From Clostridium sp. (GTDB lineage: Bacteria > Bacillota > Clostridia > Clostridiales > Clostridiaceae): a stretch of DNA of 64,000 bases. Shown here one piece after another: positions 22,710 to 35,912 of the stretch. The translations under genes and the position numbers were made by a program. How positions within the stretch are numbered: position 1 is the stretch's first letter; every line of letters starts with the position of its first letter. The stretch spans positions 1,985,958-2,049,957 of the forward strand of contig NZ_JAKVOI010000001.1 in NCBI RefSeq assembly GCF_022482905.1. Reading direction: 5' to 3'. The notes below the pieces were generated by a model. The model worked only from the letters and a program-made list of their open reading frames with translations, was not told the DNA's origin and did not search any database.

Positions 22710-24578
22710 TTATAATGGCTCTGCGCCATGTTTCTGTAAAAACATTCTAATCTCATCCATCGATTTTGGATATAGGTGAGTCAATGCAAAATCATACCAG
22801 ATATGACTATTGTTATTGAAGTTCAATGAAAATGGAGAATTGCGAATTATATGACTGCTAATTTTAGGTGGTAGATGAAGTCCAAGGCAAATTAAAACTA
22901 TGGAATTAATAGATCCCTGTTCTTCCCCATTAACGATTCTTCTTATGGTGCGCTCATTGACCATTATTTCCTCTGCTAATTCGTTATAAGTTACTTTTCT
23001 CCACTTACGCACCATTTTAAGAGAGCTGGTATAGCTATTTGATAATTCATTATAGACTCGTATTTCTTCCGCTATTGTATCAGCTAGTAATTGGGCCTTC
23101 TTTTCTGGAGCCGCATACTCAAAGCCATTACAATATTTTATATCAAAATCAATATTTGATGTCTTATCACGATTGAGAAAACATTCAGTATAGTATCTTT
23201 CCCTACACCCAGTTTTGACTGATAACTCGAAAACCAAGCAGCACTCTTCCATATGGGTTCGTGCATAGTCAGTAAGTAGGGTCTGTCCAAATATATCCTG
23301 TATTATATATTTTGGGTGGTTTAAAACAAAGTGGGAATCTGCATATATATAACTTCCGTCCCTAACTAAAGCGGCCATTTCCGTATTGGTTATGCTTTGG
23401 ATGGCAGCATCCTCTGCACCTATAGAAAAGGTCTGATTTCTTTCAAGCGCACCCTTCTTAAATCTATGAGGCTTGACGTAGCGACCATCTATGTAAGTAA
23501 AGGTTCCGATTGCTTCCTCATATCCAGCATCAATCATACGGATTTTAGCTGCTAACCTTGACACACAGAAGAATGCTGCCAATGCATCAATAACTGGTTC
23601 CATTACATCTATAAGTTTAGATGTTCCAAGTTCAGTTCTAAACTGCTTGATAAATTCAAATGCCTTGGTCTTAAACATAATCAGCGGCATTTGAATCCTT
23701 GGTGCAAGTGCATTTGCCTGCCACTCCATCCAGTCAGTTGCATCTCTAATGTTATCTTTTATACCGCCTACTACTTGACACTTAATTTTACTAGCACTGC
23801 TGTTATATAATCGCTCCAATTCAAATGCTTTCCTATGTTTGTCCCAATGAACGCACTCGTGCACAATGGTGTTATTGACTGATCCAAGATTACGAAGGAA
23901 GTACGCTTTTGGATCCACAAATATAGTACTGGCATCCACATGGGTCTGCAGCATTTCATCGCTGTTTTTATCATAAAATTCTGCATCACAGTCATGAAAG
24001 TATATCTGTCCAAAAACAGAAAAATCCTTTGTAATCTCTCTCATTTCCACGACGAGGCCCATTTTTTCTGCCAACACTTGTGGTTCAACTGCCATTGGGG
24101 TTTTTAATGCTTCTGGGTAATGTCTGCGAAGGAAGTCTGCGGCAGCAGACTCTAGTTGTTCTCTATTAATGATAGGGACAAGAGAATCCGACATAGGTTT
24201 TAACTGTTTATTTTTGCTGGTATACTCTGTTACACTGGAGATTGTAAAATCATCCAAATTGCAATCCAGATCTCCAGAACACTTCAGCATAAACCACTGC
24301 CTGCAATTTTCGGATTCATCATAGTGATAATCTGACTCCCGGACCCCTAGTTCAGCTTCAACGGCAACATCAAATTCTATTTTCATATCTGGCAAGTCAT
24401 TAACGGATACAAACTTTACTTCTATATCTGATAATTCAATGCCACCAATATTTCGAACCTTGTATAGCCTTAAGTCCAAATCATCGTAGTTATCCGTGGT
24501 GTAACTTTGTATAGCAACAAATACTTCATTATAGAATCTATCTGCCACATAGTCTTTAAATGAACGATTACCTGCCAA
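22710..24578 (-). CDS. ImmA/IrrE-type metallopeptidase with C-terminal HTH
   Basis: 622 aa. An N-terminal region of about 140 residues with no match I recognise precedes an ImmA/IrrE peptidase domain with the zincin motif HECVH at 240-244. The C-terminus has a helix-turn-helix (YNELAEEIMVNERTIRRIVNGEEQ, about 515-540). ImmA/IrrE peptidases cleave repressors to switch element or stress genes. It is transcribed divergently from a small XRE regulator, from a back-to-back promoter region, which is the usual peptidase-repressor arrangement. It is larger than typical ImmA (about 150-250 aa). Whether it serves the prophage or the adjacent defence operon is open. Confidence 0.85.
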   Translation of the reverse strand: MAGNRSFKDYVADRFYNEVFVAIQSYTTDNYDDLDLRLYKVRNIGGIELSDIEVKFVSVNDLPDMKIEFDVAVEAELGVRESDYHYDESENCRQWFMLKCSGDLDCNLDDFTISSVTEYTSKNKQLKPMSDSLVPIINREQLESAAADFLRRHYPEALKTPMAVEPQVLAEKMGLVVEMREITKDFSVFGQIYFHDCDAEFYDKNSDEMLQTHVDASTIFVDPKAYFLRNLGSVNNTIVHECVHWDKHRKAFELERLYNSSASKIKCQVVGGIKDNIRDATDWMEWQANALAPRIQMPLIMFKTKAFEFIKQFRTELGTSKLIDVMEPVIDALAAFFCVSRLAAKIRMIDAGYEEAIGTFTYIDGRYVKPHRFKKGALERNQTFSIGAEDAAIQSITNTEMAALVRDGSYIYADSHFVLNHPKYIIQDIFGQTLLTDYARTHMEECCLVFELSVKTGCRERYYTECFLNRDKTSNIDFDIKYCNGFEYAAPEKKAQLLADTIAEEIRVYNELSNSYTSSLKMVRKWRKVTYNELAEEIMVNERTIRRIVNGEEQGSINSIVLICLGLHLPPKISSHIIRNSPFSLNFNNNSHIWYDFALTHLYPKSMDEIRMFLQKHGAEPL

Positions 24579-24788: not shown

Positions 24789-25004
24789 ATGTCCATAAGT
24801 TATAAAAAACTTTGGAAACTTCTAATTGATAGAGACATGAAAAAAAAGGACTTAAGAGAAGCCGCTGGTATTAGTACTGCTTCAATGGCTAAACTCGGAA
24901 AAAACGAGAATGTTAATACTGACATTTTAATAAAAGTATGTAAGGCTCTTAACTGTGATATTTCAGATATTATGGAAATTAAAAAAACTGAGGAAACCCA
25001 TTAA
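24789..25004 (+). CDS. Small XRE/Cro-type HTH regulator
   Basis: 71 aa, essentially one helix-turn-helix domain (SYKKLWKLLIDRDMKKKDLREAAGISTASMAKLGKNENVNTDILIKVCKALNCDISDIMEI). This YozG-like type is common as the first gene of RM and other defence operons. The start follows AAGGTGAGGTGGCATT. It is 18 bp ahead of the PLD nuclease gene and probably autoregulates this operon, perhaps under control of the divergent peptidase. Confidence 0.85.
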   Translation: MSISYKKLWKLLIDRDMKKKDLREAAGISTASMAKLGKNENVNTDILIKVCKALNCDISDIMEIKKTEETH

Positions 25005-25022
25005 TCACAAAGGAGTGAGCTA

Positions 25023-26171
25023 ATGAAACTGTTGTATTCAGATATCCTGCCCCTTGCTACATTACAGGGTCAAGAAACAATTATTGACTGTTTTAACGAA
25101 CAAATTGCAAAGTCAGACCGAGTTGAAATTGCAGTTGGATACATCTCCCGTGTAGCATTGGAAGAACTAGGCCGCCTGGTCGAAGAACTCAATATATCCA
25201 GTATATGCCTTACTATTGGTATGTACTTCATCGAAGGAATGCCGGAAGGATCATACAATGCTGCGCTTGAACTGAATAAAAAATGGAGAGAGGCAGGCAT
25301 TGGCGAAATTAAGATTGTAAAGGCATTTAAATACCACGGTAAATTATACTGTTTCTATAAAGATGGACAGCCTTTTTCAGCTATCATTGGTTCTGCAAAC
25401 TTAGGTGTAATCAAATTAGATGCGAATAACCGCCGACAGTATGAAATCTCATCAATTACTGATGATGCTGCTGAATGCAGAGAAACTGCAGATTTTATAG
25501 AGAGGCTAAAAATGCAGAATTGCTCAGATAATATTGCCAGCATAACGGGAATGCCAATAATCAGGGAAATTAACACATCACTTAGCGGCATTGATATGGT
25601 AACACAAATTCCCCAAACTGGTGTACAGCTTTATGCACAGCATAAAACAGGTGTTTCTTTTGTGTTGCCGTTAAAAGTTCCTGCTTACAAAGAGCGGCAC
25701 ATGGACGATGGCAAGCATTTCACGAAATCAAATATTAATGTTAGCTATGCCGCACCAAGAAGCAGGAGAAAATCCCGTGATTGGTATGAGACCCAGCTGA
25801 CCGTGAGCAAAGAGATAACTCGTTCCAAGGGATACCCTGAAAAGAACAAAATTTTCTTTGTTGTTACCGATGACGGCTATTGGTTTAAAGCTCATACTAC
25901 AAGTGATGGCAATAAACAGTTCAGCGCTGTTGGCGATGAACTTATTCTTGGCCGTTGGATTAAGGGCAGACTTGCAGCTGCAGGACTTGTAACACCTGTA
26001 AATGATACCCAAGCTGATACAGACCGTAAGGGCATGATTACGAAAGAAATGCTGCAGGCATATGGCTGCAATAGCCTTGTACTTTCTAAAACTGACCAGA
26101 AAGCATTGGACGAAGACGGCTCTGAACTTGATGTATGGGTTTTATCATTTGAAACAACTACTAAAAAATGA
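25023..26171 (+). CDS. PLD-fold restriction nuclease with B3-like C-terminus (R1)
   Basis: 382 aa. The N-terminal phospholipase D-like nuclease has one HxK motif (YHGKLYCFYKD, His105 and Lys107) followed by IIGSANLG, the NgoFVII/BfiI arrangement that works as a dimer and needs no metal. The C-terminal part (about 210-382) has FFVVTDDGYWFKA...LGRWIKGRLAAAG...ITKEMLQAYG, matching the paralogue encoded two genes on; in BfiI this position is a B3-like DNA-recognition domain. It is likely a cleavage subunit of the RM-like system. The ribosome binding site is AAAGGAGTGAGCTA. Confidence 0.8.
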   Translation: MKLLYSDILPLATLQGQETIIDCFNEQIAKSDRVEIAVGYISRVALEELGRLVEELNISSICLTIGMYFIEGMPEGSYNAALELNKKWREAGIGEIKIVKAFKYHGKLYCFYKDGQPFSAIIGSANLGVIKLDANNRRQYEISSITDDAAECRETADFIERLKMQNCSDNIASITGMPIIREINTSLSGIDMVTQIPQTGVQLYAQHKTGVSFVLPLKVPAYKERHMDDGKHFTKSNINVSYAAPRSRRKSRDWYETQLTVSKEITRSKGYPEKNKIFFVVTDDGYWFKAHTTSDGNKQFSAVGDELILGRWIKGRLAAAGLVTPVNDTQADTDRKGMITKEMLQAYGCNSLVLSKTDQKALDEDGSELDVWVLSFETTTKK

Positions 26172-26182
26172 GAGGTGCGGCT

Positions 26183-28039
26183 ATGCAATACTTAAAAACA
26201 TACCTTCAAAAAATTACAGACCGAGGCAATGTAAAATTGGCGGAATCTATTTTAAAAACTGCTGAAGATGTTGGCGAACAGTATATTCGCAATTTTTCAT
26301 TTACAAGTCATGAGATTGGCCTGTTGTTTGGAAATATACAGTCCGGAAAAACTGGTCAGATGTTTGGCATCATGTGCAAAGCCGCTGACTTAGGTTTTCC
26401 GGCATTTATCCTGCTCACTACTGACAATGTTGCTTTGCAGCAGCAAACTTTGGAACGTGTTAGAAACGATTTAGATGGTTTCTGTATTTGCGGTGAAAAC
26501 GACTCAGGATTGTTTATTGAGAATAGCCTTGTAAAGCCAGCGATTGTCATCTTAAAGAAGAATTCACGAATGCTGAGACTGTGGGCGAATGTATTTAACT
26601 CCACGGGCTTTATGAAAGGAAATCCTCTTTTTATAGTTGATGACGAGGCAGATGCCGCTTCTTTGAATACACTTGTAAACCGCAATGGTCAGTCATCAAT
26701 TAATAGGTATTTAGACTCTATAAAGAATGGTGCATCAAGCAGTCTATACTTACAGGTTACCGGTACTCCCCAAGCAGTCTTACTACAAACACTTGCTTCC
26801 GGATGGCATCCGTATTTTACATATTACTTCCATCCCGGCGATGGCTATTTAGGTGGAGACTTTTTCTTCCCCTCAAGCGGCAAACCTGAATGCATTGATT
26901 ATCTTGAGACAATCAAACAACCAACAAGAAGTGTTGTTATACGACATATAGCTGTTTCTGCCCAAATTTTAGCATCCAACGGCAAAGTGTCAAACTGCCT
27001 TATACATCCGAGTGTACGTCAAGCTGTCCACCAGCGTTTTGCTGACAACGTCACAAAAGAAATAAATTGGTGTATTGAACATATCAATAATGAGTTCATC
27101 ACTGAATTACAAAGCCAATACAATGCTTTAATGCCTGACAGAAGTAAGAAACTTTCTTTCGATATTATATATAAAACTGCTGGGGACTTGATGGAAAACA
27201 AGTGTATAAAAGTCCTTATAATGAATGGAAAGACAGATGTTGAAAGCCATGAATATGCGGCAGGCTGTAATTTTATCATTGGAGGAAATACTCTTGGCCG
27301 AGGCGTTACTTTTCCCGGTCTGCAGACAATTTACTATACAAGGACAAGCAAAAAACCTCAAGCTGACACTATGTGGCAGCATAGCCGGATGTTCGGTTAT
27401 GACAGAGACCCCGGCATGATGAAAATATTTATAAATGAACAACTCTATAAATTATTTGCGGATATTAATGCTACTAACAATGCCATAATCGCCCAAGCAG
27501 AACAGGGAATTGATAATATTAAAATCTATTATCCAGTTGGATTAAATCCAACTAGAAAAAATGTTCTTAATAACAAACGAGTCAACATTCTCTCCGGTGG
27601 AACGAACTATTATCCATTTTATCCTGATAATGACTCTATAGAGGATATATCAAAGCTGTTGGAGCCTTTCTCTGATGATGAACCTTATTACCAAGTAAGT
27701 TTAAGATTTATTAAGAAAATTTTGACTCATATTATTGCCAGTCCGGATTTTAAATTAGACGCATTTCTTTCGGTCATTGACACATTTCTTTCAGAGCAGC
27801 CTGCTGGACAGGGTATTTTGATAGTTAGAAGAGAAAGGAATGTAGCACAAGGCACAGGTGCGTTGTTATCTCCAAATGACTGGACACTTGGCGGCACTTT
27901 TCTCAATAAAATCGTCCTTACCATGTATCAAGTGACTGGTACTAAGGGATGGGGAGGGAAAACTCTCTGGGTTCCGAATATTAAACTTCCTCACGATACA
28001 ATGTATTATGATGTGTGTGAAGATAATACAGAAGCATAG
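26183..28039 (+). CDS. Z1-domain P-loop ATPase of the restriction system
   Basis: About 618 aa from the ATG at 26183, which follows AGAGGTGCGGCT; an ATG at 26168 overlaps the previous stop. The N-terminal ATPase has Walker A LFGNIQSGKTGQMFG and Walker B LFIVDDEADAASLN, with VTGTPQAVLLQ as motif III. The Z1 domain follows (IIGGNTLGRGVTFPGLQTIYYTR...DTMWQHSRMFGY). Z1 proteins are superfamily-2-like ATPases linked to methyltransferase and Vsr genes in defence islands. It probably senses or translocates unmodified DNA for the PLD nucleases on each side, but the mechanism is not established. Confidence 0.85.
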   Translation: MQYLKTYLQKITDRGNVKLAESILKTAEDVGEQYIRNFSFTSHEIGLLFGNIQSGKTGQMFGIMCKAADLGFPAFILLTTDNVALQQQTLERVRNDLDGFCICGENDSGLFIENSLVKPAIVILKKNSRMLRLWANVFNSTGFMKGNPLFIVDDEADAASLNTLVNRNGQSSINRYLDSIKNGASSSLYLQVTGTPQAVLLQTLASGWHPYFTYYFHPGDGYLGGDFFFPSSGKPECIDYLETIKQPTRSVVIRHIAVSAQILASNGKVSNCLIHPSVRQAVHQRFADNVTKEINWCIEHINNEFITELQSQYNALMPDRSKKLSFDIIYKTAGDLMENKCIKVLIMNGKTDVESHEYAAGCNFIIGGNTLGRGVTFPGLQTIYYTRTSKKPQADTMWQHSRMFGYDRDPGMMKIFINEQLYKLFADINATNNAIIAQAEQGIDNIKIYYPVGLNPTRKNVLNNKRVNILSGGTNYYPFYPDNDSIEDISKLLEPFSDDEPYYQVSLRFIKKILTHIIASPDFKLDAFLSVIDTFLSEQPAGQGILIVRRERNVAQGTGALLSPNDWTLGGTFLNKIVLTMYQVTGTKGWGGKTLWVPNIKLPHDTMYYDVCEDNTEA

Positions 28040-28053
28040 GAGGACAAGCATAA

Positions 28054-29022
28054 ATGTTTACCAATAATATAGCACAAAAAATTTTATTTGCTCCTCCACT
28101 TCAAGGAGCAGATACATTATTAATATTAAGTGGATATGCTACTCCTAATATGGCATCGTGGCTAATAAAGAGTTTTCAGGAGCAAAATATGCACCTTGTC
28201 AATATTTCATTGCTTATAGGGATGGTACCTTACGATGGGTTAAGTGTTCCTATACATGAAGGTTTTAAGGAACTCCATGGCAAGGCATATCCAAATGCTG
28301 TGGATAGCTTTTCCTGCAGCTATGTTTGCGAAAACCCTCCGGTCCATGCAAATTTGTACATTTGGCTAAAAGGTAAATTGCCAATACAGGCATATACAGG
28401 TTCTGCTGATTTTGTGCAGAATGCATTTATTCCATCTCGAAAGGAAATCGTGGAATGCTGTAATCCAGAAGAAGCACATAAATTTTTTGAGGAAATTGAG
28501 GCAAATTCCATCTACTGTAACCATGCAGAGGTTGAAGACCATATTGTTCTCCATCCAACACATCAAATTCTAGATGCTGAAAGTAAGCCAATAACCACTT
28601 TAGCTGGGGAAGGTATTATTTCTACAACACTATCTCTTCTTACAAATAGAGGTGATGTTGGAGAAAAGTCCGGTTTAAATTGGGGGCAACGTAAGGGCAG
28701 AAATAGAAACCAAGCATATATACACCTTCCTGCTAAAATTGCAAGAAGTGGTTTCTTCCCGCTTGACAAACAGCATTTTACTGTTGTTACAGACGACAGT
28801 CACACGCTTCTTTTAAGGGTAGAGCAGCAAAACAACAAGGCAATTACAACACCTCTCAGCAATGCTCAGCTTGGAGAATACTTTCGAAACCGTTTAGGTC
28901 TCGGAAATGGTGCATTTGTTACAAAACAAGATTTATTGAACTATGGAAGAACAGATGTTACCTTTTACAAAATCGATGACGAAGAATATTATATGGATTT
29001 TTCTCCGCATCCCTCAATATGA
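28054..29022 (+). CDS. Second NgoFVII-like PLD-fold nuclease (R2), altered HxK
   Basis: 322 aa, paralogous to the first PLD protein (shared FTVVTDD...GEYFRNRLGLG...VTKQDLLNYG C-terminus). The nuclease motif reads PPVHANLYIWLKG followed by TGSADFVQNAF. The His is kept (His98) but the lysine expected two residues later is Asn100. Either this is a degenerate subunit that binds DNA and dimerises with the first protein, or Asn is tolerated. The start follows AGGAGGACAAGCATAA. Its 3' end stops 19 bp before the Vsr gene. Confidence 0.8.
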   Translation: MFTNNIAQKILFAPPLQGADTLLILSGYATPNMASWLIKSFQEQNMHLVNISLLIGMVPYDGLSVPIHEGFKELHGKAYPNAVDSFSCSYVCENPPVHANLYIWLKGKLPIQAYTGSADFVQNAFIPSRKEIVECCNPEEAHKFFEEIEANSIYCNHAEVEDHIVLHPTHQILDAESKPITTLAGEGIISTTLSLLTNRGDVGEKSGLNWGQRKGRNRNQAYIHLPAKIARSGFFPLDKQHFTVVTDDSHTLLLRVEQQNNKAITTPLSNAQLGEYFRNRLGLGNGAFVTKQDLLNYGRTDVTFYKIDDEEYYMDFSPHPSI

Positions 29023-29041
29023 AGGAGGTGATAAACTTATT

Positions 29042-29464
29042 ATGTCAGATAATCACTCAAAAGAAGTTCGCAGCATGAACATGTCCCATATTCGAAGTAC
29101 AAACTCTAAGCCAGAAGAAATTGTCAGAAAATATTTATTTGCCTGCGGATTAAGATATAGAAAAAATGTACGAACTCTTCCCGGATGTCCAGATATTGTT
29201 TTGCCAAAATACAAAACCATTATATTCGTAAATGGCTGCTTTTGGCATCATCATGACTGCGGACGTTTTGTCTGGCCGTCAACAAATAAAGAGTATTGGT
29301 ACAAAAAAATAAACAAAAATGTTGAACGTGATAAAAAGAATTTTCAGCTACTTAAGCGGCAGGGTTGGAATGTCCTTGTTATTTGGGAGTGTCAATTAAA
29401 AAAATCTGTTGCTGAATCCAATTTATCTTCACTCTACAATGATATTATTGCACAGCAACATTAA
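29042..29464 (+). CDS. vsr: Vsr mismatch endonuclease
   Basis: 140 aa from the ATG at 29042 behind GAAGGAGGTGATAAACTTATT; the usual Vsr length. It shows MSHIRSTNSKPEEIVRKYLF, RTLPGCPDIVLPKYKTIIFVNGCFWHHHDC (catalytic Asp in CPDIV and zinc ligands in the His/Cys cluster), and VIWECQL. Vsr nicks 5' of T in T:G mismatches formed when 5-methylcytosine deaminates. Its presence therefore supports a C5-cytosine modification made by the convergent methyltransferase gene 48 bp away. A longer open frame upstream overlaps the PLD gene and is not needed. Confidence 0.93.
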   Translation: MSDNHSKEVRSMNMSHIRSTNSKPEEIVRKYLFACGLRYRKNVRTLPGCPDIVLPKYKTIIFVNGCFWHHHDCGRFVWPSTNKEYWYKKINKNVERDKKNFQLLKRQGWNVLVIWECQLKKSVAESNLSSLYNDIIAQQH

Positions 29465-29513
29465 AAAACAGCAAAGAATAAGTTTTCATCTTGCTTACTG
29501 CTTTGCTGTTTTT
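29463..29513. terminator. Bidirectional terminator between vsr and methyltransferase
   Basis: Long hairpin with arms AAAACAGCAAAG and CTTTGCTGTTTT and A/T runs on both outer sides. It isolates the two convergent operons of the restriction system. Confidence 0.85.
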
Positions 29514-30564
29514 ATTCATCAATGTTAGGTTCTACTGACTCATAGGGAATCCCTGCAAAACTTTTTAGAATAGATTCAAAGATAATTTTTGCTCCTCTGC
29601 ACGGAACAGCCATACCAATTTGCTTTCTGACACTTTCCTTGCTTCCAATAAATCTATAGGTATCAGGAAAAGTCTGAAGCCTTGCTCGTTCTCTGTTTGT
29701 TAATGCACGTGCTTCATCCCAATGGTATATATGGGTTCCGCCGCCTCCGCTTCCAGTTACCGTATAGGATGGTTTATTGGGGTCAAGCCGTTTGTAAATT
29801 TGGCTGATTTTTGCACCCGTTATATTAAGTCTCAGATTTTCAGGTAAATCAGCTGTAAAAGCGTTCTGTCCTGGACGAATGCACTGCAGTCTTCTGATAA
29901 CAATTTCTGAATGCCTCGTTCTCTCATTGTTATATGCATCTTCAGGGATAGGAGGAACTTCAATTGCTGTTCTGCAAGTATTATCAGCATCTGCATATGG
30001 TTCTGCAGACGGAACTCTGTATTCAACATCAATATCATTTCTAATTCCTACAATAATCAGCCTGTGTCTCGTCTGCGGAACTCCATACTCTTCAAATTTG
30101 TATAAATGCGGTGTTATGGTATAACCTGATTTACGCAGCTCCGTTAGAATTTTTGTAAATGCCCTGCCATCATTTGCGTTCCTAAGTCCTCCTACATTTT
30201 CTGCCAGGAACCACTGTGGTCTAAAATGCCTCAGCGCCTTAACACCATATGAATACAACGGGCCATATACCCCATCCATTCCTTTCTGTTCACCTACAAC
30301 ACTATAATCGTTGCACGGAAATCCGAACGCTAAAGCATCAATGGGAGCAAGCTTTGACATATCAAATTTTCGAATATCTTCATGGTAAACAGTCTCCGGT
30401 GCATCTGGGCAAATATTTTTACGATATGTTTCACAAGTATCTGCATCATAATCATTTGCCCATTGATGTGTAATTATAAATTCTGGATTTCCAATATCGG
30501 CGTGCATTGCCCCCCAAGCTATTCCACCCGGTCCGCAGAATAATTCACCTAATCTAAATGGCAT
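29512..30564 (-). CDS. DNA (cytosine-5) methyltransferase
   Basis: 350 aa with all C5-MTase landmarks in order: motif I LGELFCGPGGIAWGA, motif IV GFPCNDYSVVGEQKG with the catalytic Cys, motif VI ENVGGLRNA, motif VIII QTRHRLIIVG, a target-recognition region at about 205-275, motif IX RARLQTFPDTYRFIG, and motif X KQIGMAVP. It methylates the site recognised by this RM-like system and protects host DNA. It starts two bases after the XRE controller stop. The recognition sequence cannot be read from the protein. Confidence 0.95.
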   Translation of the reverse strand: MPFRLGELFCGPGGIAWGAMHADIGNPEFIITHQWANDYDADTCETYRKNICPDAPETVYHEDIRKFDMSKLAPIDALAFGFPCNDYSVVGEQKGMDGVYGPLYSYGVKALRHFRPQWFLAENVGGLRNANDGRAFTKILTELRKSGYTITPHLYKFEEYGVPQTRHRLIIVGIRNDIDVEYRVPSAEPYADADNTCRTAIEVPPIPEDAYNNERTRHSEIVIRRLQCIRPGQNAFTADLPENLRLNITGAKISQIYKRLDPNKPSYTVTGSGGGGTHIYHWDEARALTNRERARLQTFPDTYRFIGSKESVRKQIGMAVPCRGAKIIFESILKSFAGIPYESVEPNIDE

Positions 30565-30566
30565 AA

Positions 30567-30917
30567 TTACAGCCCTCCTTCTGAAATTCCATCGGTGCTT
30601 TTTCTTGATATCATAAAATCTATAAGCAGCTGCAAATATTCCATGTCTTTATCGCTCAATTTCTCCAGACCACGAAATTGTGTACTCGAATAAATATCAT
30701 TTTCGGAAATATATCCTGCTGCTAAAAGCAGTTCAAATGGATGGAATTCGAGTGCTTGAGCAATCTTACACAGATTCTCCCAGTTCGGTTTCTTACGAAT
30801 ACCCTTCTCAATTTTCATTATTTCGCTGTCGCTTAATCCACAGGCATTTCCTAATCTTTTCTGAGACAACCCTGCAGCTTCTCGACGACTTTTAATTAAT
30901 TGACCTACCTCAGGCAT
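30567..30917 (-). CDS. XRE-type controller of the methyltransferase
   Basis: 116 aa with a standard XRE domain (VGQLIKSRREAAGLSQKRLGNACGLSDSEIMKIEKGIRKKPNWENLCKIAQAL). A C-terminal tail, LSDKDMEYLQLLIDFMISRK, may mediate dimerisation. It is co-transcribed with the C5 methyltransferase two bases away, like C-proteins of type II RM systems, and a matching inverted repeat lies in its promoter. It could also contribute to prophage control. Confidence 0.85.
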   Translation of the reverse strand: MPEVGQLIKSRREAAGLSQKRLGNACGLSDSEIMKIEKGIRKKPNWENLCKIAQALEFHPFELLLAAGYISENDIYSSTQFRGLEKLSDKDMEYLQLLIDFMISRKSTDGISEGGL

Positions 30918-30934
30918 ATTCTCACCTCTATATT

Positions 30935-30997
30935 AGAATAGCACATACGCTGCTTATTGTCAATATATTTCTAATTTATGCTGCCTAAAAGCAGCAT
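30935..30997 (-). promoter_or_regulatory. Controller/methyltransferase promoter and operator
   Basis: On the minus strand TTGACA (30958-30963) and TATTCT (30935-30940) have a 17-nt spacer. An inverted repeat ATGCTGC/GCAGCAT (30978-30997, 6-nt loop) sits just upstream of the -35, and a related GCAGCGTATG word lies in the spacer. This layout suggests autoregulation by the XRE controller. Confidence 0.7.
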
Positions 30998-35044: not shown

Positions 35045-35480
35045 TTATTCTTGGTGTCCCATAAAATTTTCATTATAAAAATAGGTTATTTTAAAGATAT
35101 AAAAGAAAATATTTAAACACTTATATTTTCTTTTTTTGAACAATCTCTCTTTAAAATCATTCAAAAATGTATATACAACCGGAACAAACAATAATGTCAA
35201 CAATGTTGATGTAATTAATCCTCCAATAATTGCAAAAGCCATTGGTGCACGTAGTTCTGAGCCTAAACCTGTAGCTACAGCTGAAGGAATCATACCAAAA
35301 ATCATGGCCAAGGTAGTCATAATAATCGGCCTTAAACGCGTATGCCCAGCTTCAATCAAGGCTTCATTCAAATTCATTCCCTTTCTGTGGTTTTGTTTTG
35401 CAAAATCAATAAGTAAAATTGCATTTTTAGTAACCAGCCCCATCAACGTAATAACTCCTATGGCAGACATCATACCAGCT
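35045..35480 (-). pseudogene. RND efflux pump (AcrB-like), C-terminal fragment
   Basis: About 120 residues match the end of an RND transporter: [58 protein letters not shown] and the following two transmembrane helices ending in [11 protein letters not shown]. The first 900 or so residues are missing; the frame starts abruptly at about 35475, next to an oppositely oriented MFS fragment. The C-terminal tail past [10 protein letters not shown] is probably read-through. Not functional. Confidence 0.85.
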
Positions 35481-35499: not shown

Positions 35500-35912
35500 T
35501 CCTAAATATGATATCTCGCCCCTCAGCAGGCAAACTCTTTGACACTAAAGGCGAAAATGCAATAATCTATCCTGGGATTTTGATAAATGCGATATGGTTG
35601 TTATTATTCGCATTAAGTGCGAGTTTCATGATGCTAGCGGCAGCAGTCCTCATTGGTCTTGGGCTCGGGGCCATACAGTCTGGAACACAAACGCTGGTAG
35701 TAAAGATCACGCCGTCTCACCATTTAGCACCTGATAATTCAACATTCTATCTGTGCACAGATTTGGGCAACTGCATCGGGCCTCTGCTCACGGGCGCGCT
35801 AATAACATTCCTAGGATATCGTGGAATGTATATAATTGTGGCAGTAATCGGGTTCTTAACGTTATTAATATACTGGTTTGCATATACCAGAAAGGCTAGT
35901 CGGGCTTTATAA
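35500..35912 (+). pseudogene. MFS transporter, C-terminal fragment
   Basis: 134 residues of the last four or five helices of a drug-efflux type MFS protein (RPSAGKLFDTKGENAIIYPG, LGLGLGAIQSGTQTLVVK, YLCTDLGNCIGPLLTGAL). The first two-thirds are missing and no proper start or ribosome binding site exists. It is joined tail to tail (about 20 bp apart) with the RND fragment, marking a deletion or insertion scar. A GC-rich terminator follows. Confidence 0.85.

Follow-up and report, generated by a model that had tools for sequence, protein, structure and literature searches.

A prophage-borne CglI/NgoAVII-type restriction locus of Clostridium sp. with a second PLD-B3 protein that probably no longer cuts DNA

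Introduction

Are two related PLD-B3 proteins encoded beside a single ATPase both nucleases? The question is raised by a restriction-modification (RM) locus in a Clostridium sp. prophage, which lies within a 64,000-nucleotide stretch of contig NZ_JAKVOI010000001.1 (here, the window). A preliminary description listed an XRE regulator, two PLD proteins (R1 and R2) flanking a Z1 ATPase, Vsr, and a C5-cytosine methyltransferase (M) with its own regulator (XRE2). We confirm this gene set (Table 1), whereas the interpretation given to it is partly supported. Both PLD proteins carry PLD and B3 domains, but R2 lacks the HxK...GSxN motif. CglI-type enzymes form a poorly understood class. They act as an R2H2 complex that depends on nucleoside triphosphate to cleave DNA a set distance away from a short asymmetric site; the R dimer has one active site, and therefore two complexes are thought to meet for breaking both strands.

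Results

R1 and the ATPase form a CglI/NgoAVII-type core

R1 combines an N-terminal PLD domain bearing HxK with a C-terminal B3 domain, the arrangement of the CglI/NgoAVII type, and matches R.NgoAVII (PDB 4rct, 2.6e-33) and PADLOC REase_II (9.5e-147). Its three catalytic residues are invariant in all 57 aligned sequences. The neighboring ATPase matches Helicase_II at 3.6e-304, and its residues 461-614 match a CglIIR protein (PDB 6f1s, 6e-18); G55, QSGKT 58-62 and DDEAD 158-162 are invariant in the 16 sequences aligned. The prophage bears a motor-driven DNA-cutting defense system of known kind, which has gained a second related protein, whereas CglI (Corynebacterium glutamicum) and NgoAVII (Neisseria gonorrhoeae), both ATP-dependent, have a single R protein and lack R2.

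Table 1. Features of the RM locus, in window coordinates
Feature	Position	Strand	Description
XRE1	24789..25004	+	Small Cro/C1-type regulator heading the R operon
R1	25023..26171	+	PLD-B3 nuclease subunit, CglI/NgoAVII type; intact motif H105, K107, N126
Z1-type ATPase	26168..28039	+	PADLOC Helicase_II match
R2	28054..29022	+	PLD-B3 pseudo-nuclease; H98, N100 replacing Lys, D119 replacing Asn; intact B3 domain
Vsr	29042..29464	+	Mismatch endonuclease family; TIGR00632, 2.6e-44 over residues 34-151
M	29512..30564	-	C5-cytosine methyltransferase; Pfam DNA_methylase, 1.6e-70
XRE2	30567..30917	-	Controller-like, co-oriented with M; Pfam HTH_31, 2e-10
Predicted XRE2-M promoter	30935..30963	-	By eye; TTGACA 30958-30963, 17-nt spacer, TATTCT 30935-30940
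Tri-site promoter element	30949..30995	-	GCTGC-N6-GCAGC, then GCAGC within the -35/-10 spacer (30949-30953)

R2 has an altered active site and a conserved DNA-reading domain

R2 carries the RE_NgoFVII (1.4e-54) and RE_NgoFVII_C (1.9e-44) domains, in agreement with its fold match. Its motif reads HAN...GSAD, and because HxK...GSxN defines the catalytic site of NgoFVII-type nucleases, we do not classify R2 as a nuclease. Among 36 distinct full-length inactive R2 sequences (mean PLD distance 0.55), 16 have also replaced the catalytic His (by K, Q, R, T or N) and 30 have lost the GSxN Asn. The B3 domain is more conserved than in standalone relatives, and dN/dS is low in both domains. The cutting site appears lost while the DNA-reading part is strongly preserved, and R2 probably reads DNA sites and cuts them no longer. 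Its PLD part also gave fold matches to FAM83B DUF1669 and TrmBL2, PLD-like folds that act without PLD catalysis and, unlike R2, do not belong to RM proteins.

A tentative alternative, which we would not favor, is that R2 is a brake that lessens self-restriction, for instance following replication or on arrival of the prophage in a new host, either as a non-cutting competitor covering transiently unmethylated host sites or by poisoning R1 in mixed dimers. However, a brake in the operon of the nuclease itself gives protection no head start, nothing supports binding of R1 and R2 to the same sites, and the divergence of the two proteins makes a mixed PLD dimer doubtful. That R2 still cuts through a remodeled HxN/GSxD site, giving two nucleases that share one methyltransferase as the preliminary description implied, is unlikely. 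Asn occupies position 100 in 35 of the 36 inactive sequences, so that this position is not drifting freely, and five composites retain HxK, but the His and GSxN losses argue against continued cutting. Fragments or split open reading frames (ORFs) of R2 (L048, L114) and its absence from several branches might indicate a decaying relic of a merger of two RM systems, which we consider very improbable given the low dN/dS, the number and diversity of full-length inactive sequences and the conserved B3 domain. Equally hard to credit is a role for R2 as a transcription regulator that reads the triple GCWGC element of the XRE2-M promoter, even though this element repeats a target of related methyltransferases.

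Fourteen loci (L045:10022-10444, L046:10339-10749, L096:4991-5401, L073:9407-9820 and ten more) hold, in or near the RM genes, a small NgoFVII-B3-related ORF without PLD, a second nuclease-free B3 protein.

Methyltransferase, promoter element and predicted target

A C5-methyltransferase at the same locus is a feature of the CglI/NgoAVII type, but M falls outside the clade of the N. gonorrhoeae enzyme (branch 1.6) and groups with methyltransferases of standalone R2 systems. R2 and M are of the lineage of simple NgoFVII-type systems (C5-methyltransferase and PLD-B3 nuclease, with or without Vsr). Methyltransferases 57-63% identical to M adjoin AlwI-family restriction enzymes (L188, L189, L190, L186, L187), annotated as such on three plasmids and judged by eye from a similar-sized ORF on Listeria contigs; the methyltransferase family therefore serves several nuclease types. 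Vsr proteins repair deaminated 5-methylcytosine; here the probable start is 29042, in a frame open from 28943.

In 45 of 102 loci, M is preceded by an XRE2 homologue, and the leaders compared show a promoter layout similar to that of XRE2-M. The triple pattern has a single match in the window. We predict GCWGC as the target, as opposed to GCCGC/GCSGC for CglI/NgoAVII.

Neighboring genes

A 622-residue protein (22710-24578) belonging to phrog_4031, a family of unknown function, has an HTH toward the C terminus and adjoins this RM cargo repeatedly in relatives. Judged by eye, an RND-like ORF (35045-35473) and an MFS-like ORF (35508-35912), both of efflux type and apparently partial, follow the integrase and may mark the prophage boundary, and a zeta-toxin-like P-loop ORF (243-806) lies at the edge of the structural region.

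Discussion

A published parallel in predicted target is EfaRFI of Enterococcus faecalis OG1RF and the T11 locus, which pair a Gm5CWGC C5-methyltransferase with adjoining endonuclease genes, four endonuclease-domain genes surrounding one methyltransferase in T11 (PMC4894674). Entry of unmodified pCF10 was reduced 124-fold in T11 versus 3-fold for EfaRFI (PMC4894674). T11 may be a composite similar to this locus, and M.EfaRFI may be close to M; both are leads. In the open-access literature searched, with most subscription papers and REBASE outside the search, we found no description of the triple GCWGC element or of a CglI-type system that includes an additional PLD-B3 protein with an altered catalytic site.

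The locus appears to be a case of a nuclease turned pseudo-enzyme following the merger of two RM systems. A natural system that keeps an apparently nuclease-dead R homologue offers a direct way of studying the division of labor among site recognition, translocation and cutting, and the conserved promoter element renders the guess at the target testable.
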